Source: Cellvibrionales bacterium (GTDB taxonomy: Bacteria > Pseudomonadota > Gammaproteobacteria > Pseudomonadales > JAHEIH01). Taken from it: DNA of 64,000 bases. The notes under the pieces are model-generated. The model had not been told where the DNA came from. It saw only the letters and a list, made by a program, of their open reading frames with translations, and searched no databases. The stretch covers positions 1-64,000 of the forward strand of contig JAHEIH010000005.1 of the NCBI GenBank assembly GCA_024639455.1, given 5' to 3'. The position numbers and the translations under genes are program-made. The first letter of the stretch is position 1. Every line of letters begins with the position of its first letter. Positions 25,790 to 34,250 of the stretch are shown here, piece by piece.

Positions 25790-26536
25790 TTAATACTCGC
25801 CGCTTTCTTGCTGGGCAATAAAGTCGGCCAATAATGTCTCTTCCTGCGGGCTCATGCCACGCTCTTTCAGCAAATCTGGGCGGCGTAAATACGTGCGCCC
25901 AAGGGCCTGCTGTAAGCGCCATTGCTTGATACGGGCGTGATCACCACTCATCAAAATCGCTGGCACCGCCTCGTCTTTATACACCTCGGGGCGGGTGTAA
26001 TGCGGACAATCTAACAGACCATCCACAAAGGAATCTTCGACCGCTGAATCAGGATGACCTAGCACCCCGGGCAGCAATCTTGCGACCGCATCAATCACGA
26101 TCATCGCCGGCAGCTCACCGCCGCTCAACACGTAATCGCCTACCGACCATTCTTCGTCAATCTGCGCTTGTAACAAACGCTCATCAACACCTTCATAACG
26201 CCCAGCGAGAATAATTATCTCCTCACACTCGGCGAAGGTTTGCGCGGCCGCCTGGTCAAACCGCTTACCTTGGGGGCTCATATAAACCACCTTGGCAGCG
26301 GGATGCGACGCGCGCATCGCGTTGAGCGCCTTTTCTAGCGGCTCAACCTTCATAAGCATACCTGGGCCACCACCATAGGGTCGGTCATCCACAGTACGAT
26401 GCTTGTCTTCGGTGAAGTCGCGCGGGTTGCTACACGCTATCGACAACACACCTTGCCGAACCGCTCGCCCTACCACACCGTTATCAGTGATGGCCGCGAA
26501 CATTTCGGGGAACAGGGTTACAATGCCAAAGCGCAT
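25790..26536 (-). CDS. trmD: tRNA (guanine-N1-)-methyltransferase TrmD
   Basis: Methylates G37 in tRNAs next to the anticodon, preventing +1 frameshifts. The 248-residue SPOUT enzyme has typical motifs: [12 protein letters not shown] at the N-terminus, [13 protein letters not shown] near 55, [13 protein letters not shown] near 110, and the trefoil-knot segment [16 protein letters not shown]. It lies 18 bp after rimM. Confidence 0.97.
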
Positions 26537-26554
26537 TCAAGCCTCTTCCATCAA

Positions 26555-27097
26555 CTAGAATTCAGGGTCCCAGTCGACCAACATCTCACCCGCCTCGAGG
26601 TCGATCTCTAGCACCACGTTTTCTAAAATGTATGGGACTAAGCGCTCGCGCTTATCGAGGCTACCCTCACAGGCAGCCACCACCATGACATCATTGGCAC
26701 CGGTCTCAAACAGCGAGCTAATCTCGCCTAACAATACCTTAGAGGTACCCGCTTGCGTGTAAACACGCAGACCTTCCAATTCATACCAGTAGTAGTCTTC
26801 GCCCTCTAATTCGGGGAGAACATCTTCTGGCATAAGTAATTCGCAGCGAGCAAATAACTCAGCACTATTGCGGTCACTGACACCGTCAATTTGTGCAACC
26901 AGGCCTTTACCATGGGGCTTCACCGACAACAATTTGATCGGTTTAGCCACGCCGCCCGGGCGACGATACGCCTGAGCAAATTGGGCAATGTCAGTCGGCC
27001 TGTCTAAAAAGGCATGGATTTTTACCCAGCCTTTGATACCGTAGACACCGGTAATCTTGCCGGCAACTAGGTACTGATCATATGGTGTAGCCACCAT
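26555..27097 (-). CDS. rimM: 16S rRNA processing protein RimM
   Basis: A 180-residue factor for 30S assembly that binds S19. The N-terminal RimM domain begins VAGKITGVYGIKGWVKIHAF. The C-terminal PRC barrel follows from about residue 95 (GEDYYWYELEGLRV), with the end LEIDLEAGEMLVDWDPEF. Its ATG shares one base with the rpsP stop (TAATG). Confidence 0.97.
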   Translation of the reverse strand: MVATPYDQYLVAGKITGVYGIKGWVKIHAFLDRPTDIAQFAQAYRRPGGVAKPIKLLSVKPHGKGLVAQIDGVSDRNSAELFARCELLMPEDVLPELEGEDYYWYELEGLRVYTQAGTSKVLLGEISSLFETGANDVMVVAACEGSLDKRERLVPYILENVVLEIDLEAGEMLVDWDPEF

Positions 27098-27345
27098 TAT
27101 TGAGCTTTAGCAGCTTCCTTGATCAGTTGCGCAACGCGATCAGACACTTGAGCACCTTGGGCAATCCAGTGATTGATGCGATCGCTGTCCAGACGTACAC
27201 CCTCTTCTTGACCACGGGCTACAGGGTTGAAGAAACCAACGCGCTCAATGAAACGACCGTTGCGAGCATTGCGGCTGTCAGCAACAGTGACGTGGTAGAA
27301 AGGACGCTTTTTTGAACCGCCACGGGCCAAACGAATAGTTACCAT
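27097..27345 (-). CDS. rpsP: 30S ribosomal protein S16
   Basis: An 82-residue S16 ([22 protein letters not shown]) needed for 30S assembly. First gene of the rpsP-rimM-trmD-rplS operon. GAGG lies 8 nt before the ATG. In related genomes ffh lies directly upstream; here a 3-kb island separates them. Confidence 0.98.
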
Positions 27346-27360
27346 GTGTTTTTCCTCAAA

Positions 27361-27404
27361 GTCTCTATAGAGACAGTTATCAAAGTAGGAGCGAAAACTG
27401 CTCC
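27361..27404 (-). promoter_or_regulatory. Structured leader of rpsP
   Basis: Two inverted repeats lie between the predicted promoter and the rpsP SD. One is the perfect 14-bp palindrome GTCTCTATAGAGAC (27361-27374), ending 3 nt before GAGG. The other is GGAGC/GCTCC (27388-27404) with a 7-base loop. Their closeness to the SD makes a role in translation or autoregulation possible. Confidence 0.4.
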
Positions 27405-27422
27405 ATCCTGTAAAGGACGCGC

Positions 27423-27450
27423 ATTTTAAGGCAAGTCATCCACTTTGCAA
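27423..27450 (-). promoter_or_regulatory. Sigma-70-type promoter for the rpsP operon
   Basis: On the minus strand a -35 TTGCAA (27450-27445) and a -10 TAAAAT (27428-27423) are separated by 16 bp, about 78 bp upstream of the rpsP ATG. The predicted leader would be about 70 nt. Confidence 0.6.
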
Positions 27451-27462
27451 AGGCTTTTACAC

Positions 27463-27487
27463 AAAAAAACCCCTAGCTTAGGGGTTT
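27463..27487 (-). terminator. Terminator facing the rpsP promoter
   Basis: AAACCCCTA and TAGGGGTTT form a perfect 9-bp stem with a 3-base loop, followed by a run of seven T on the minus strand. It would stop minus-strand transcripts arriving from the island or ffh before they enter rpsP, although no minus-strand gene lies close upstream. Confidence 0.8.
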
Positions 27488-27542
27488 ACTTAATTAACTA
27501 AAGCAATGATTTAATTATACTTTCATGAAAAAAATGACAAAC

Positions 27543-27561
27543 ATATTCCATAAATATTCCA
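27543..27561. repeat. Direct repeats ATATTCCA x2, 11-bp period
   Basis: ATATTCCA occurs at 27543-27550 and again at 27554-27561, one helical turn apart, 41 bp upstream of the recombinase-like gene. TTAATTA also occurs twice just upstream. Tandem sites on one face of the helix suggest a protein-binding site, perhaps for the adjacent DNA-binding protein. Confidence 0.35.
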
Positions 27562-27601
27562 CAAACCCTACAATAACGTAAAAACTTTCGGCAAAGAAAT
27601 C

Positions 27602-28660
27602 ATGAAATATATCGTGTCCCGCGGCGATAGCCTGCACTATCAACGCACTTTTCCAAGGCGCTTGCAGCCTATTACTGGGCGCGCCATGTACCATCGGATA
27701 GGATTGCCACCCGGAGCATCCAAATCCGACATCGCCGCCATTCGCGACAGCCTCAACCAACAGTTCGAACAACTGGTCGCCGCCGCCGAAAGCAGCCTTG
27801 GCAGCGATAGTCCATCACTCGATAGCCGCAGCGCCATGCTTCAGATCATGCAGCATTCATCGCTCGACCAGCAGCTCACCCTTAACGATTTATGGCATGA
27901 ATACTGTCAACACAAAAATCTCAAAGACCGCGCACGCCAAATCGTAAACATCGATTGGCAGCGCTTTATTCGACTGGCCGGCAACCTCATCGCTAACGAC
28001 GATACCGACACCAACCGGCGACTCAACGCCGCATTGCAGGCGCAATTCCACACACGGCAACAGTTCGTCAAAGCGAGTACCGCTAAACGCGAATTGAGCC
28101 AGGTCATCGCGGCATTAAAAAACGGCGCCAAACGACACCAACTGTATTGGCGCATCGACCCGATCAAAGCGCCAATCACACCTAGCAATCCTCGCCAAAT
28201 AATTAGCCACAAGGTGGTTGTGCAGCTACTAAGCCGGGCCGGCGACGACACCAGCAACACCGACGTTGACGCGCTGTTGCTGCTGGCGCTTTTTACCGGC
28301 ACTACACCCGCTGAAGTGGCTCGTCTGAGACGCAACGATATTCATTTCGACCACCCATTACCCCACCTCGAGTTACGCAATTCAAAGCGCCACATTGTTC
28401 GCTGCGCGCCCGCCCCTATCGTCAGCAATAAACTTCGCCACAGCATCGATGCCGCTATTAACTTAGCGCAAATGAGTAAGGGTTACGTCAGCCGGATGTG
28501 CCGAAAACGACTACAAGACATCAACGGTGGCGAAAGCCCCATTAGCCTCAGCGACACCCTACATACCTACAAACAACTCACTGCAGGTATAGATTTAAAC
28601 GACGACCTGCAACACACGTTTCCTCAAGTTGCCCACCGAATGTCTGAATTCATCCGATAA
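27602..28660 (+). CDS. Tyrosine-recombinase-like protein lacking catalytic residues
   Basis: A 352-residue intact frame laid out like an island integrase. The N-terminal segment resembles DUF6538 arm-binding starts (YIVSRGDSLHYQRTFPRRL). A helical core-binding-like region covers about 90-180. A C-terminal part contains LLLALFTGTTPAEVARLRR (227-243), aligned by eye with the Arg I box TGxRxxEl, but with Thr235 where Arg should be. SLSDTLHTY (315-323) sits where HxLRHTF is expected, so His and Arg II are replaced. The end has no GHxxxxTTxxYxH. Lys262 in NSKRHIV may be the remaining catalytic Lys. The frame is long and free of stops, so it may be kept as a DNA-binding protein. The family call is tentative. 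Confidence 0.6.
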   Translation: MKYIVSRGDSLHYQRTFPRRLQPITGRAMYHRIGLPPGASKSDIAAIRDSLNQQFEQLVAAAESSLGSDSPSLDSRSAMLQIMQHSSLDQQLTLNDLWHEYCQHKNLKDRARQIVNIDWQRFIRLAGNLIANDDTDTNRRLNAALQAQFHTRQQFVKASTAKRELSQVIAALKNGAKRHQLYWRIDPIKAPITPSNPRQIISHKVVVQLLSRAGDDTSNTDVDALLLLALFTGTTPAEVARLRRNDIHFDHPLPHLELRNSKRHIVRCAPAPIVSNKLRHSIDAAINLAQMSKGYVSRMCRKRLQDINGGESPISLSDTLHTYKQLTAGIDLNDDLQHTFPQVAHRMSEFIR

Positions 28661-28694
28661 AAAAAGGGGAGCCGCTTGAGCTGCCCCCCCCTTA
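28661..28694 (-). terminator. Terminator between the recombinase-like gene and the SQR module
   Basis: GGGG-AGC pairs with GCT-(G)-CCCC around a 7-base loop, with one bulge. On the minus strand it is followed by TTTTTT, right after the stop of the plus-strand gene. It lies 15 bp past the end of the small minus-strand ORF and best serves that transcript. Confidence 0.65.
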
Positions 28695-28709
28695 ATACAC
28701 CTATGACAG

Positions 28710-28877
28710 TTAGTGTCCTTTCATTAACAAGCGGACAATTTTTAAGTTCAATGCGGCGAAGCGAATAATCTGCCAAGGCAAAAAAGTGTGCATAAACAAC
28801 ACAAATTTATTAGGCTTGGCAGGAAAATAAGCCTGCTCGTAGGGACGCTTATTCTCTGGTATTTGGTCTTGCATCAT
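28710..28877 (-). CDS. 55-residue membrane-associated small protein
   Basis: An ATG at 28877, with GAGG 6 nt upstream, lies 11 nt after the stop of the flavoprotein pseudogene and gives MMQDQIPENKRPYEQAYFP followed by a hydrophobic/aromatic segment (FVLFMHTFLPWQIIRFAAL, about 30-48) and a basic tail ending LLMKGH. This pattern fits a short protein lying on or in the inner membrane. An in-frame ATG at 28967 would run through the pseudogene and is not used. I do not recognise the family. Position suggests a partner of the quinone oxidoreductase, for example a membrane anchor, but that is inference. Confidence 0.6.
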   Translation of the reverse strand: MMQDQIPENKRPYEQAYFPAKPNKFVLFMHTFLPWQIIRFAALNLKIVRLLMKGH

Positions 28878-28888
28878 CTTTTCCTCGC

Positions 28889-30366
28889 TTACTCTGGAAT
28901 CACACTCCAGAAGGGTTTTAATTTGGCCTTGTAGATGAACAGGTGGTGCAGGGTATGCTTGATCCATTGCGCCCCTAAACCAACCTCACCAGACGTCAGA
29001 CTCTGATCACGGCCAGTGTCGGGAAACTTAGCGTAATCGGGGACCACAGGATAGACCGTCATAGCGGCAGCTGTCCCCGTGAAGAAGTCTTTGCCGGTAC
29101 TTGCAATACAGGCCGCGCCCATTTGGGCCATGCTAGCAGTGCGCGTAGGTGTATCACTGACACCATTGATCATGTCGACAATATTCTCCGCCACGGCCCG
29201 TGCCATGGTCGCACTTGGCATACCAGTACGCGGTGGCGCAGGCGTGATCAGCGTATCGTTAGGTGATTTACGCGGCTGTGAGATCTGGTGCGGCGGTGCA
29301 AAAGCAATACCCACCGCAAACATATTGCTATACGTCGGGTTTTGCAGTTTCTTCGGCCAATCATCCGCACTCCACTCAGCATAGGGCTTCGGCGTGTAAT
29401 CCGCATCCACCTTCATATACCCACTAGGGGCAAAAATGGTCGAAGTAATGTCTTCACCACTGGCGTCAAAGGCCTTCATCTCCTGTCCAGCAAAGGGCGG
29501 AATCAACATGGCGAAATCGAAGCTTTGCTCGTGGAAGGTGCTGTCGAGTAACTCATACTCAACCTTACCCGCCTCCACTTGTTTAACGTGCGCACCGACA
29601 ATCCAGCGGATATCACGCTCGGCAAAGATGGATTCAGCAAAAGACTTAGAGTGCATGGTATAACCACCCTGCTCCAAGTGCATCGCCCCCATACCGAGAT
29701 CACCCAAGAACTGCTCATTAGAAATCCACACGATATCTGCTTTATCACGAACACCTGCCTTACGCAGCTTGTGATCGACGTTAAAAATATACTCAAACGC
29801 CGCCCCTTGACAGGTACAAGTCCCGTGGCCTGTGCCGATAAAAACGTGGCTTTTTTACCCTCAGGATAGCCTTTCATTTCGTTGATAAGCGCTTGTAAAC
29901 GCACTGCGGCGTCTTCCGCATGGCTCGCTGTACATACGGATACCGTGTGCTCACCCAACTGGTTGCCAATCCCAAGACCAGGCGTGGCACCGAAGTTTAA
30001 TTTAGGCCCAGTGGCGTTGATCACATAGTCGTATTCTAATTCGATCATCTAGTCGAGATTGTGGTCACCTGTACCTTGCGCCACAACGTAAGGAGCACTG
30101 TGGCTGGCGCCGCCTTCGGGATGAATAGAAACCGCTTTGGCTTTTACGTATTCGATACCGACTTTTTTGTATACCGCAGCTAAATCAAACAGAACCTCGC
30201 TCTTGTCCATCTGTCCAACACCTACCCAAATATTAGAGGGAATCCAGTTCCAGTCTTTATTGGGAGTAACGACAGTGACTTGGTGTTTCTTACCGAGCAA
30301 TTTATTGAGATAGCTGGCCGCGGTGTGACCTGAGACACCACCACCGAGAACGACAACGCGCTTCAT
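28889..30366 (-). pseudogene. Sulfide:quinone oxidoreductase-like flavoprotein, nonsense plus frameshift
   Basis: Begins at the ATG at 30366 with the FAD Rossmann motif VVVLGGGVSGHTAA. Followed through all frames it would encode about 490 residues resembling sulfide:quinone oxidoreductases and related NAD(P)/FAD oxidoreductases, including DYVINATGPKLNFG, HGTCTCQGAAFEY and a late Cys in MGAACIASTGKDFFTG. Two lesions break it. A TAG at 30051-30049 interrupts ...DHNLD-stop-MIELEYD. A T5 run on the minus strand (29845-29841) appears to lack one T, since restoring it gives ATFFIGTGHGTC in frame. SD AAGGAG precedes the start. A membrane quinone-linked sulfide oxidation role would have been expected. 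Sequencing error at the homopolymer is possible, but not for both lesions. Confidence 0.8.
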
Positions 30367-30399
30367 GACTTCTCCTTAGTGTTATAAGCATGAATGAGT

Positions 30400-30418
30400 A
30401 TCGACCCATGATGTCGAT
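30400..30418. promoter_or_regulatory. Inverted repeat ATCGAC-N7-GTCGAT upstream of the flavoprotein gene
   Basis: Perfect 6-bp arms lie 34-52 bp upstream of the ATG of the SQR-like pseudogene, the usual place for a repressor operator. No regulator gene is nearby. Confidence 0.35.
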
Positions 30419-30558
30419 TCAATAAAACATAGCAACACCTTTATTACTTTTTGCAATAAACTTAGCGCTTTTAGTTATAACATTTGGTTTCAAAGAGAAT
30501 TAACCACGGACATTTATTAGGTATATATGATATTGGTGTTCGATTAGACGACAACGCC

Positions 30559-30585
30559 AAAAAAAAGGCACCCTTAGGTGCCTTT
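30559..30585 (-). terminator. Rho-independent terminator of ffh
   Basis: AAAGGCACC and GGTGCCTTT form a perfect 9-bp stem with a 4-base loop, followed by about eight T on the minus strand, 3 bp past the ffh stop. It confirms that ffh is not co-transcribed with rpsP. Confidence 0.92.
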
Positions 30586-30588
30586 GCA

Positions 30589-31962
30589 TTACATACCAGG
30601 GAAACGGCCACCGCCGCCAGGCATCATCCCTCCCATGCCACGCATCATATTCATCATGCCGCCCTTGCTCTTCATCTTTTTCATCATCTTTTGCATCTGC
30701 TTGTGCTGCTTCAACAAACGATTTAAATCTTGCAGGTCAGTACCGGAACCCAGAGTAATACGACGCTTACGAGAGCCGTTGAGAATATCGGGGTTGCGAC
30801 GTTCTTTGGGGGTCATAGAATTGATAATGGCTTCCATGCGGTCAAACTGCTTGGTATCCACTTTGGCTTGCGCCATCTGTGCTGAGACGTTCCCCATGCC
30901 GGGCATTTTGTCCAACATCGAGGTAATCCCCCCCATGTTTTTCATCTGCTGCAGTTGATCGCGAAAATCTTCAAGATCAAAACCTTTACCCTTTTGAACC
31001 TTTTTGACTAGCTTTTCGGCTTTGGATTTATCGATCTTGCGCTCAGCTTCTTCAATCAAGCTGAGCACGTCGCCCATACCCAGAATTCGCGAGGCAATAC
31101 GGTCGGGATAGAACGGCTCTAAAGCATCAGTCTTTTCGCCGATACCCATAAACTTAATGGGCACCCCGGTAATCTGGCGAACAGACAGCGCTGCACCACC
31201 TCGAGTATCGGCATCGGCCTTGGCCAGCACCACACCCGTCAAAGGCAGCGTATCGCTGAATGCTTTAGCCGTATTGGCCGCGTCCTGGCCGGTCATGGCA
31301 TCAATCACAAACAGCGTTTCAATGGGGTTCAAGACACCGTGTAGCGCTTTGATCTCTTCCATCATCTCGGCGTCGACGGCTGTGCGGCCTGCGGTATCGA
31401 CAATAAGCACATCGGCAAACTTGAGCTTGGCTTCTTTTAAGGCCGCCGCCACGATATCTGCAGGTTTTTGGGCAACATCGCTAGGGAAGAACAAAGCACC
31501 GACTTCGCTGCTGAGGGTTTCCAACTGCTTAATCGCCGCGGGGCGATAAACGTCGGCCGATACGGTCATAACCTTTTTGCGCTGTTCTTGCTTGAGGTAT
31601 TTGGCCAGTTTGCCCACAGTGGTAGTCTTACCCGCCCCCTGCAGACCCGCCATCATAATAATAGCCGGAGGCTGCGTAGCCATGTTCAACGGCGCACTAT
31701 TACCCATGACCGCTTCGAGTTCGGCCTGCACAATCTTAACGAACATCTGACCCGGGCTAAGGCTCTTGTTAACCTCCTGCCCGAGCGCACGCTCTTTTAC
31801 GCGTTCGACAAAGTCTTTAACAACTGGCAGCGCGACGTCCGCTTCCAGTAATGCCATACGCACTTCGCGCAGGGTATCTTTAATATTGTCTTCGGTTAGC
31901 TTGGCCTTGCCGGTAATCGTACGCAACGACTGGGACAGGCGATCGGATAAGCTCTGGAACAT
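30589..31962 (-). CDS. ffh: Signal recognition particle protein Ffh
   Basis: GTPase of the SRP that targets nascent membrane proteins to FtsY. The ATG at 31962 (MFQSLSDRLSQSLRTITG) gives 457 residues; the frame continues upstream but without family similarity. The N domain is followed by the G domain with GLQGAGKTTTVGKLA near 105, DTAGR near 190 and TKADADTRGGAAL (here LAKADADTRGG) near 248. The C-terminal M domain is methionine-rich and ends in a Gly/Met tail (GGMMPGGGGRFPGM) that binds signal sequences and 4.5S RNA. It is divergent from the CcsA/YpjD-like gene. Confidence 0.97.
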   Translation of the reverse strand: MFQSLSDRLSQSLRTITGKAKLTEDNIKDTLREVRMALLEADVALPVVKDFVERVKERALGQEVNKSLSPGQMFVKIVQAELEAVMGNSAPLNMATQPPAIIMMAGLQGAGKTTTVGKLAKYLKQEQRKKVMTVSADVYRPAAIKQLETLSSEVGALFFPSDVAQKPADIVAAALKEAKLKFADVLIVDTAGRTAVDAEMMEEIKALHGVLNPIETLFVIDAMTGQDAANTAKAFSDTLPLTGVVLAKADADTRGGAALSVRQITGVPIKFMGIGEKTDALEPFYPDRIASRILGMGDVLSLIEEAERKIDKSKAEKLVKKVQKGKGFDLEDFRDQLQQMKNMGGITSMLDKMPGMGNVSAQMAQAKVDTKQFDRMEAIINSMTPKERRNPDILNGSRKRRITLGSGTDLQDLNRLLKQHKQMQKMMKKMKSKGGMMNMMRGMGGMMPGGGGRFPGM

Positions 31963-32093
31963 TGTTAGACCCTTGTATAAATTCGTACAGTGCCTAATGC
32001 CGGCACTCGATAGATGCGCTAGTATAGCGAAGCGAGACACAACGGACTACCAAAACACCAAAAAATCGGCCACTATACAAGGATCAATCAGCA

Positions 32094-32900
32094 GTGAGTC
32101 ATATGGACATCAACAGCCTTTTCGCCATTGTTAGCATCATTATTTACGCCTTTCTCGCCGTGCGGCATTGGGGCGACGCCAACGCAAAATCTAGCGGGGG
32201 TCGCGATCATGCGCTGGCACTTATGGCTATATCTTTGCATTGGTGGATTAACATCCAAGCCACTATTGTCGACGGTGGCTACCTACTGTCTTTTACCAAC
32301 ACCGGCGGTATCGTTGCGGCCTTCGTTGCCAGCATGGTTTACACCGCCAGTTTGCGACACCCCATCAATAGCCTTGCCAGCCCAACCTATGCGATTGCCG
32401 CGTTAATTGTGCTAGTGATACTGATCAACCCTTTTCCCACCCCCCAGGCTGGCCTGATGCAAGGCGGCTTATTGAGCCATGTGGTTCTGTCATTGCTGGG
32501 TTACGCCACCCTCACCATGGCAGCTATCCATTCATTGGCACTAGCGATGCAAGAGCAGCGTTTAAAGGCTCGCCAAACCAGCCGCTTATTACGTTTCTTA
32601 CCGCCGCTGCAAACCATGGAGAAGCTGCTTTTCCAAATCATTTGGGCAGGTGAAATTTTGTTAACCACTGGCATTCTCAGCGGTGTCATTTTCCTAGAGG
32701 ATATTTTCGCGCAACACCTCGTCCATAAAACCGTTTTATCGCTGGTGGCTTGGAGTATTTTCGCTGCACTGCTATGGGGTCGTCACGTGCTGGGTTGGCG
32801 CGGCAATACCGCGGTAAAGTTAACACTGACAGGCTTTGTGGTTTTAATGCTCGCTTTCTTTGGTAGCAAGCTAGTAATGGAAGTTATCCTGCAACGCTAG
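32094..32900 (+). CDS. Inner-membrane protein of the CcsA/YpjD family
   Basis: A 268-residue polytopic protein with about eight hydrophobic segments, resembling the cytochrome c assembly (CcsA) fold and E. coli YpjD, which is also next to ffh and a CorB-like gene. The heme-handling WWD motif is not visible. Partial features such as HVVLSLLGYATLTMAAIHSL and FQIIWAGEILLTTGILSGV fit the family. The start is GTG at 32094 with AAGGA about 10 nt upstream; an ATG three codons later is possible. Precise function is unknown. Confidence 0.8.
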   Translation: MSHMDINSLFAIVSIIIYAFLAVRHWGDANAKSSGGRDHALALMAISLHWWINIQATIVDGGYLLSFTNTGGIVAAFVASMVYTASLRHPINSLASPTYAIAALIVLVILINPFPTPQAGLMQGGLLSHVVLSLLGYATLTMAAIHSLALAMQEQRLKARQTSRLLRFLPPLQTMEKLLFQIIWAGEILLTTGILSGVIFLEDIFAQHLVHKTVLSLVAWSIFAALLWGRHVLGWRGNTAVKLTLTGFVVLMLAFFGSKLVMEVILQR

Positions 32901-32984
32901 AATTACGCGTTAAAAAAAGTTGCCAATGTCACGATTTTTTTGCAAGATGACTAGCCATAACAGAATTATGAGTAACTAAAACTC

Positions 32985-34250
32985 TTGAACGAAGCACCGC
33001 TGGGCCTTCTATCCCTTATCCTTGTTGTTCTCATTTTTGTCTCTGCGTTTTTTTCAAGCTCCGAAACCGGCATGATGTCGCTCAATCGTTATCGGTTGAA
33101 ACACCTTTTTCAAAAAGGTCACAGCGGCGCCAAACGCGTTACTCACCTACTAGAGAAACCCGATCGCCTCATTGGTCTCATCCTTATTGGCAACAATATC
33201 GTCAACATCTTCGCCGCAACCATCACATCGATTATCGCCATAAGGCTTTACGGTGACCTAGGTTTAGTCGTAGGCCCAATTATCCTGACGTTGGTGATTT
33301 TGATCTTTGCTGAAGTGACACCCAAAACTATTGCTGCACTGCACCCCGAGCGAATCGCCTACCCCGCCAGCTTGATTCTGCGTCCCTTGATGACCCTGCT
33401 CTATCCCGCTGTTTGGCTGACCAACTGGATATCCAATGGCCTGCTCGCCCTGCTCGGCGTCCGTCATGTTAAACACAACGAAAGCGACCACCTGAGCGCC
33501 GAAGAGCTGCGCACGGTTGTGAATGAGGCCGGCGCACTTATCCCCGCCCGCCACCAACATATGTTGCTCAACATTTTGGATTTAGAAAACGCCGAAATCG
33601 ACGATATCATGATTCCACGCAACGAGATCTTTGGCTTGGATCTCGACGAGGATGACGACGAGATTGCAGAGCGTATCCAAGCCTGTGAATACAATCGTAT
33701 CGTGGTCTACAGCGGCGACATCAACAATGTTCAAGGGGTGCTTCACCTGCGCAATGTTTCTCGCATTTTTACGCCTCAGGGTCTAAGCCGTGAACTCTTG
33801 ATGGAAAACATCAGCGAACCCTACTTCGTTCCAGAAGGCACCCCACTGCACACCCAACTGTTCAAGTTCCAGGAACTAAAGCACCGCTTCGCCATCGTGG
33901 TTGACGAGTATGGTGTGGTGCAAGGCATTGCCACCTTGGAGGATATTCTGGAAGAGATTGTCGGCGAGTTCACCTCAAATATCAGCGACAATATTGAGGA
34001 AATCTTCCCTCAGGCAGACGGCAGTTACATTATTGACGGCACCGCCACTGTGCGCGACATCAACAAGAATTTGGGCTGGGAATTACCCACCGACGGGCCG
34101 AAAACCCTCAATGGTTTGATACTTGAGCACCTCGAGTCCTTCCCCGAGGCGAGCGTCAGCGTTCGAATTGAGCACTACAGCTTTGAAATTATCGATCTTA
34201 GCGAGAACCTGATCCAAACCGTACGCGCCACGGACTTAGACGAAAACTAA
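32985..34250 (+). CDS. CorB/HlyC-CorC family (CNNM) membrane protein with CBS domains
   Basis: A 421-residue member of the CNNM/CorB family linked to divalent cation, mainly Mg2+, transport. The N-terminal DUF21 membrane domain (about 1-180) includes FFSSSETGMMSLNRYRL and IGNNIVNIFAAT. A CBS pair (about 200-330) has MIPRNEIFGLD and VVDEYGVVQGIATLEDILEEIVGE. A C-terminal CorC_HlyC domain has DGTATVRDINKNLGWELP. The start is TTG at 32985 with a weak SD. It matches YfjD, the usual partner of YpjD beside ffh. Its stop overlaps the stop of the convergent DUF1289 gene by 2 nt. Confidence 0.88.
   Translation: MNEAPLGLLSLILVVLIFVSAFFSSSETGMMSLNRYRLKHLFQKGHSGAKRVTHLLEKPDRLIGLILIGNNIVNIFAATITSIIAIRLYGDLGLVVGPIILTLVILIFAEVTPKTIAALHPERIAYPASLILRPLMTLLYPAVWLTNWISNGLLALLGVRHVKHNESDHLSAEELRTVVNEAGALIPARHQHMLLNILDLENAEIDDIMIPRNEIFGLDLDEDDDEIAERIQACEYNRIVVYSGDINNVQGVLHLRNVSRIFTPQGLSRELLMENISEPYFVPEGTPLHTQLFKFQELKHRFAIVVDEYGVVQGIATLEDILEEIVGEFTSNISDNIEEIFPQADGSYIIDGTATVRDINKNLGWELPTDGPKTLNGLILEHLESFPEASVSVRIEHYSFEIIDLSENLIQTVRATDLDEN

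Follow-up and report, generated by a model that had tools for sequence, protein, structure and literature searches.

A reading frame that resembles an integrase, lacks the catalytic residues of one and has nevertheless stayed open raises the question whether the gene has been kept for another function or is a relic. We analyzed such a gene in a stretch of 64,000 nucleotides from a Cellvibrionales bacterium (the window; the gene and its product are called the window gene and the window protein). An initial annotation had described an intact, clean frame of 352 residues with recombinase-like ancestry, and both points were confirmed, including the coordinates. The ORF listing and the translation yielded a frame of 352 aa from ATG to TAA with zero internal stops. 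The window protein matched the integrase family phrog_1 of the PHROGs (E 1.1e-10, residues 91-250), and a profile of 13 relatives, built without the window protein, matched the frame at 146 bits. The Pfam match to PF00589 (Phage_integrase) was weak (E 0.0026; 18 bits, below the cut-off of 27.1). A chance frame was ruled out by the length of 352 aa together with the homology; the longest noted frame opposite another long frame has 207 aa. A frameshifted C-terminus was also ruled out, because the profile reported nothing in the other two forward frames of the window gene with filters off. Judged from these matches, the window protein is assigned by descent to the tyrosine recombinase superfamily. 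It has a pI of 9.9 and a net charge of +14 in 352 residues, and most relatives are strongly basic, too. A single-sequence structure model had a mean pLDDT of 38. The genome itself (2.88 Mb, 99.5% complete) contains three PF00589-like places, i.e. the window gene, the XerD of the window on contig 9 (assigned by NCBIfam), and one on contig 7.

Table 1. Features of the window gene and its surroundings (window positions)
Feature	Positions	Strand	Basis
Insertion of 3243 bp between rpsP and ffh, holding the window gene and a broken flavoprotein gene	27346..30588		Locus comparison
Promoter-like hexamers TTAACT-16-TATACT, 9/12 matches, weak	27494..27521	+	Motif scan
Tandem direct repeat of 11 bp, ATATTCCATAA/ATATTCCACAA, candidate operator	27543..27564	+	Pattern scan and shuffles
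Tyrosine-recombinase homologue without the catalytic set, 352 aa	27602..28660	+	Translation, PHROG and profile matches, alignment
N-terminal arm-type region (MKYIVSRGDSLHYQR..P..L)	27602..27790	+	Relatives' profile positions 1-67, 26.7 bits
Core-binding (SAM-like) domain, approximate boundaries	27875..28198	+	Relatives' profile, column retention
Catalytic domain, first half, with T235 and I265	28199..28410	+	Alignment, column retention
Rest of catalytic domain: middle without strongly conserved columns, then degenerate end	28411..28657	+	Alignment

The main alignment contained the window protein, 13 relatives from one clade, and 8 more distant canonical integrases, which make up four pairs, each closely or fairly closely related. 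Three matches were left out, namely an N-terminal fragment (L005/L099 of G041), a sequence with two stop codons in the matched stretch (L007 of G149), and L008 of G018, which matched the window protein at E 0.004. The last of these (L008:1327-2340, + strand) is a recombinase-like frame of 336 aa with a weak PF00589 match, in which Arg I, the hairpin Arg described below and the Arg II box are all missing; it was not counted in the clade because it had no phrog match and reached only 2.8 bits against the clade profile.

The alignment bore out the earlier description of the active site: Thr occupies the Arg I site (T235), SLSDTLHTY replaces box II, and the terminal Tyr motif is absent. Arg I, Arg II, the box II His, the Trp/His III residue and the Tyr are thus all missing from the window protein. 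In place of the catalytic set R-K-H-R-H/W-Y it has T235, S261 at the Lys site (or K262, if a shift of one residue is allowed), S317 at the His/Tyr site and L320 at the Arg II site of box II, and it has neither the W, with the GW missing, nor the Y. Compared with the relatives, the linker and the C-terminus are shortened. The loss was not uniform along the protein. Retention was counted by a leave-one-out comparison with the 13 relatives, excluding catalytic columns. The N-terminal region kept 10/18 conserved and 12/23 hydrophobic columns, the core-binding domain 9/11 and 19/20, the first catalytic half 6/9 and 18/19, and the C-terminal end 1/7 and 6/11, respectively. The core-binding domain and the first catalytic half together therefore kept 15/20 conserved columns versus 1/7 at the C-terminal end, although these column counts are small. 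The relatives kept 5-11 of 11-14 conserved columns in the core-binding domain, 5-9 of 9-13 in the first catalytic half, and 4-7 of 7-11 at the C-terminal end.

The relatives themselves turned out to be unusual. At the Arg I column (464), all 8 canonical integrases have Arg, within the motif TGLR or TGMR, whereas among the clade relatives this position is Met in 5, His in 5 and Ile in 3. Conversely, column 502, the fourth position beyond the catalytic Lys, has Arg in 13/13 clade relatives, Ser in 8/8 canonical integrases, and Ile (I265) in the window protein, which therefore lacks the hallmark Arg of the clade. Four sequences from a class-wide search were held out as a check. Two of them (G649a and G649b) have Ile instead of Arg I and carry the hairpin Arg, so that the combination of absent Arg I and present hairpin Arg was seen in 15/15 clade members (13 aligned, 2 held-out). 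A third, from G793, showed the canonical pattern of Arg I and Ser; the fourth, from G594, combines Arg I with a shorter hairpin, the Arg of which can be aligned at either site. In the XerD of the window, Arg I is present and column 502 is a Lys; a basic residue at this position is thus not unique. The initial annotation was therefore right about the absence of Arg I, but this absence is not private to the window gene: the clade relatives lack Arg I as well, and T235 is no special loss.

Apart from Arg I, the clade relatives retain the catalytic residues, with the exception of a broken second copy in G393, which has Phe for Tyr. Ten columns are invariant in the 13-row alignment, including (in the numbering of P0002, the integrase of G381) E309, K334, the moved arginine R338, R340, R393, H394 and W416, and Y430 is nearly invariant, the Phe of the broken G393 copy being the deviation. 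The His site of box II is occupied by His in 5 and by Tyr in 8 of the 13. The clade profile matched XerA, Int protein and XerD structures over the catalytic domain; we take the Int protein to be that of Tn1549. All five clade members that were scanned matched phrog_1, and P0002 also matched DUF6538 (PF20172) below the threshold (E 0.003). In a tree, the canonical rows split off at 100/100, and the window protein fell on the side that lacks Arg I. Its branch is the longest (2.57 changes per column, compared with 2.25 for G446b, 1.6 for G373 and 0.82 for G381), which makes its exact placement unsure. Because the tree needs a single change between the two groups, the arginine swap represents one evolutionary event, not 13 independent ones, and it has been kept across clade sequences that are 21-40% identical to P0002. 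Taken at face value, the clade looks like a group of integrases in which Arg I was relocated to the beta-hairpin that follows the catalytic Lys. The candidate arginine lies four residues after the catalytic Lys, whereas the substitute arginine of the CTnDOT integrase lies just before its Lys. The initial annotation had named orthologues with catalytic residues intact at other positions as a finding that would speak against its reading. The homologues come close to this picture, as another arginine appears to compensate in them, but orthologues are not involved. A literature search that covered part of the literature found no paper on this clade.

To what extent the relatives are integrases of genomic islands was analyzed for the seven with a tRNA gene in the fetched stretch, by searching for a duplicate of the tRNA 3' end. 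Such copies were found in 4/7 cases, 7-10 kb away (G393a, 16 bp; G247a, 18 bp; G134, 31 bp; G446a, 23 bp). No copy was present in the fetched stretches of G446b, G247b and G334, the last of which is on a contig that ends at the gene; a 24-bp copy of the 5' end of its tRNA was found just upstream in G446b. Each of the four tRNA-bounded islands contained a single recombinase-like gene, as judged by BLAST against our own sequence set and XerD. The G247a gene is broken, and the G446a gene, which lies by the distal repeat, is an open frame without the N-terminal part. A canonical control (G158, at a tRNA-Arg gene) had no tRNA-end repeat within 10.6 kb. Pairwise dN/dS values were 0.07 for G393a-G247a, 0.15 for G393a-G393b and 0.07 for G649a-G649b, with dS above 2 in the first and third pair. 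Pairs of integrases with the relocated arginine were noted in G393 and G649. At the tRNA-Leu gene of L140/L141 (G393:C1 7050-18473), two related copies lie 10 kb apart in the same orientation, and the second of them is broken and has Phe in place of the Tyr; in G649, two full-length copies (L156 and L160) that are 77% identical are on different contigs. An HNH-HIT fusion gene is recurrent cargo: it adjoins the integrase in G381 (L002:76-1071, - strand), occurs in the tRNA-Asn island of G134 (L122:4961-5947, - strand; 52% identical, the copy in which the Pfam domains were seen), and lies near the canonical G158 integrase (L123:6403-7374, - strand; 50% identical).

No tRNA gene is present in the window, which argued against insertion by duplication of a tRNA end, and exact direct repeats of at least 14 bases were not listed in 26300-33000. 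The window gene lies in the insertion between rpsP and ffh (Table 1). Of 90 loci that were compared, many from Pseudomonas, four had no ffh, and in 85 of the 86 with both genes placed rpsP lay no more than 572 bp from where the Ffh match ended. The exception is a Bermanella MAG with a multi-gene insertion of 4.9 kb (L028:4457-9120), in which no integrase was found by reading its ORFs of at least 90 aa. The second gene of the window insertion, a flavoprotein gene at 28889-30366 (- strand), contains an in-frame stop and a frameshift, which may be an assembly error; its first fragment had a hit to type III sulfide quinone reductase (1e-5) that fell far short of the model cut-off. The scanned neighbours were XerD, ffh, ccsB-like and CNNM/CorC-type genes, the broken flavoprotein gene and an ORF without a family match; transposon genes were not recognized among them.

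Searches for relatives were performed at several levels. At E <=0.01, 8 of 390 genomes of the order matched the window protein, own genome included, and the best non-self match was P0002 of G381 (30% identity over residues 89-311). With P0002 as the query, 14 of the 390 order genomes matched at 1e-6, own genome counted; family-level searches gave matches in 3/25 genomes for the G373 family, 5/112 for the G334 family (P0006 query) and 2/116 for the G381 family, and the class-wide search at 1e-15 in 4 of 369 genomes, own genome among them. Short exact patterns or tblastn, which may miss distant sequences, found no relatives of the window protein in the genome-contig, phage, plasmid and viral-contig collections. 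Searches of the same kind yielded no relatives of the P0002, P0003, P0004, P0006, G432 and G393a integrases in viral contigs, of P0002 in plasmids or phages, of the G432 integrase in plasmids, and of the G393a integrase in phages. A DNA search for the locus in a genus-mate (G001), which is 75% complete and has a contig that ends inside trmD before the locus, returned nothing and had no positive control. The homologue search that the initial annotation had suggested as a check thus yielded homologues, but orthologues were found neither in the 390 order genomes or 369 class genomes nor in the genome-contig scan.

This absence of orthologues is one reason to take seriously that the window gene is a relic, i.e. 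the integrase of a dead island that lost catalysis and then all constraint, with a frame that is open by chance. We regard this as a real possibility, a little under an even chance. It would fit the shortened linker and C-terminus, and broken relatives do exist: the tRNA-Leu copy of G247 and the second copy of G393 each have a stop inside. The gene also shares its insertion with the broken flavoprotein gene, a fragment of which has the same native codon score. Specifically, the codon-position GC contents of the window gene are 0.59/0.41/0.61 and its synonymous-codon score is 0.066, within the range of 38 other ORFs of the window. The broken flavoprotein fragment scored 0.069, and residues 300-350 of the window protein scored 0.003. 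Because the broken fragment looks equally native, the codon test cannot separate a live gene from a recent relic, and codon usage was dropped as proof of a live gene.

Two results speak against a relic. First, neutral drift was simulated from the present sequence with substitutions only and no indels, a design that is silent on the date of catalytic loss. The fraction of runs without a stop was 0.18 at 0.05, 0.036 at 0.1 and 0.003 at 0.2 substitutions per site, and thus dropped quickly even before indels are considered. At 0.1, the probabilities of replacing an Arg codon and of changing His to Ser were 0.18 and 0.003, respectively. Because of these low probabilities, neutrality does not readily account for a frame that has lost several catalytic codons and is still open, and the earlier argument that the frame is too clean for a decaying dead integrase was upheld by the simulation for a long neutral decay. 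Second, the DNA-binding half retains its conserved positions as the relatives do. From the retention and the simulation we read that constraint outlasted catalysis in the window gene.

If it did, the DNA to which the product might bind could be its own promoter region. The initial annotation had pointed to a direct repeat 41 bp upstream; the repeat is present, but 37 bases separate its end from the ATG. When up to 3 mismatches were allowed, the 22-base pattern was found at one place in the window and in 0/100 shuffles, and in the genome it also occurs at one place, upstream of the window gene itself. The 11-base unit alone was not above chance (4 places at up to 1 mismatch, a number reached by 13/100 shuffles). 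The single genomic occurrence ruled against an operator regulon, and the repeat thus hints at autoregulation at most. Promoter-like sites of the kind listed in Table 1 occur 4 times in 27340-28760, compared with a shuffle mean of 1.5 (sd 1.1).

Taken together, we tentatively favor a non-catalytic DNA-binding protein over a relic, at close to an even chance. The ancestor was an integrase from a clade that often resides at tRNA genes and in which Arg I had apparently moved to the beta-hairpin. The window copy has shed the catalytic residues, including the moved Arg and the Tyr-bearing C-terminus, although the Lys may persist at the adjacent residue. It retains the arm-type and core-binding regions and the first part of the catalytic domain, in a frame presumably kept by selection. 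The product would bind DNA but not recombine it, much as MrpR does, and its target might be its own promoter, via the repeat. Counted for this reading were the open frame, the uneven retention, the low probabilities under neutrality, the longest branch that is yet open, the pI of 9.9, and the absence of a frameshift relic. Counted against it were the lack of an orthologue, the broken neighbor gene, the codon score of residues 300-350, the small column counts, and the lack of fold support and of a regulon.

It appears improbable that the window protein serves a mobile element or another recombinase as a non-catalytic partner or by selecting targets, as TnsF does for Tn6022. Precedents exist in the available parts of the literature, as TnsF is described as an inactive tyrosine-recombinase derivative for target choice (PMC10293859) and the first Arg is absent from GinC, which is among the three integrases that GInt islands encode (PMC5385486). 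However, the genome of the window offers only two other PF00589 places, XerD and the one on contig 7, and the scanned neighbors include no recognized transposon genes. That the window protein is still an active recombinase with unrecognized catalytic residues is very improbable: the relatives suggest that the active site of the clade can be rearranged, and the protein has K262 and R263 close to the hairpin sites, but the residues expected at Arg II, at the box II His/Tyr, at the Trp and at the Tyr are replaced or missing, while in the 13 relatives R393, H394 and W416 (P0002 numbering) are invariant and Y430 is nearly so.

The non-catalytic DNA-binding protein that we favor has a described counterpart. 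MrpR (YopR), the master repressor of SPbeta (PDB 8A0A), has a recombinase fold, has lost activity and represses through repeated elements, according to the portion of PMC10516654 consulted. The window protein likewise has recombinase ancestry, and Arg I, His and other catalytic residues are replaced. In the same portion of that report, MrpR retains the Lys, the Tyr and a catalytic domain, and its targets are repeated elements in its own prophage (PMC10516654), whereas the window protein lacks the Tyr and the Trp and has an N-terminal arm region. The likeness is one of features, and DNA binding by the window protein would be predicted from them. Repeated operator elements in the genome, as in the case of MrpR, were not found for the one candidate repeat tried. 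TnsF is similar in being inactivated, recombinase-derived and devoid of the Tyr-bearing part, but, as far as the available text goes, it carries zinc fingers at its N-terminus and is part of a Tn7-like transposon (PMC10293859); in the window protein no Pfam domain besides the weak Phage_integrase match, and among the scanned neighbors no transposon gene, was recognized.

The clade has counterparts as well. In the text available from PMC8138268, the catalytic pentad of tyrosine recombinases is described as otherwise strictly preserved, while IntCTnDOT lacks the first Arg, for which a downstream Arg substitutes, and the first Arg of IntDes is shifted. The clade resembles these two and GinC in its missing or shifted first Arg, as judged by the descriptions in the parts of PMC8138268 and PMC5385486 consulted. 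It differs from all three in that its members are Gammaproteobacterial, by the scope of the search, and some lie in tRNA-bounded islands. With the DUF6538-type integrases of phages and islands (PF20172, phrog_1) it shares phrog_1; the 8 aligned canonical integrases combine Arg I with the hairpin Ser, and the clade shows the reverse.

The combined scenario, in which Gammaproteobacterial island integrases moved Arg I to the beta2-beta3 hairpin and stayed active at tRNA genes, and in which one member, the window gene, gave up catalysis and was domesticated for DNA binding, is possible but rather doubtful as a whole. The clade, with Arg I absent, a constant replacement Arg and some tRNA-bounded elements, would be a further natural test of active-site rewiring after CTnDOT. 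The authors of the MrpR study suspected, in the part of PMC10516654 available, that such domestication is more widespread, and the window gene may be an added candidate for a repeated domestication of dead integrases as DNA-binding proteins.
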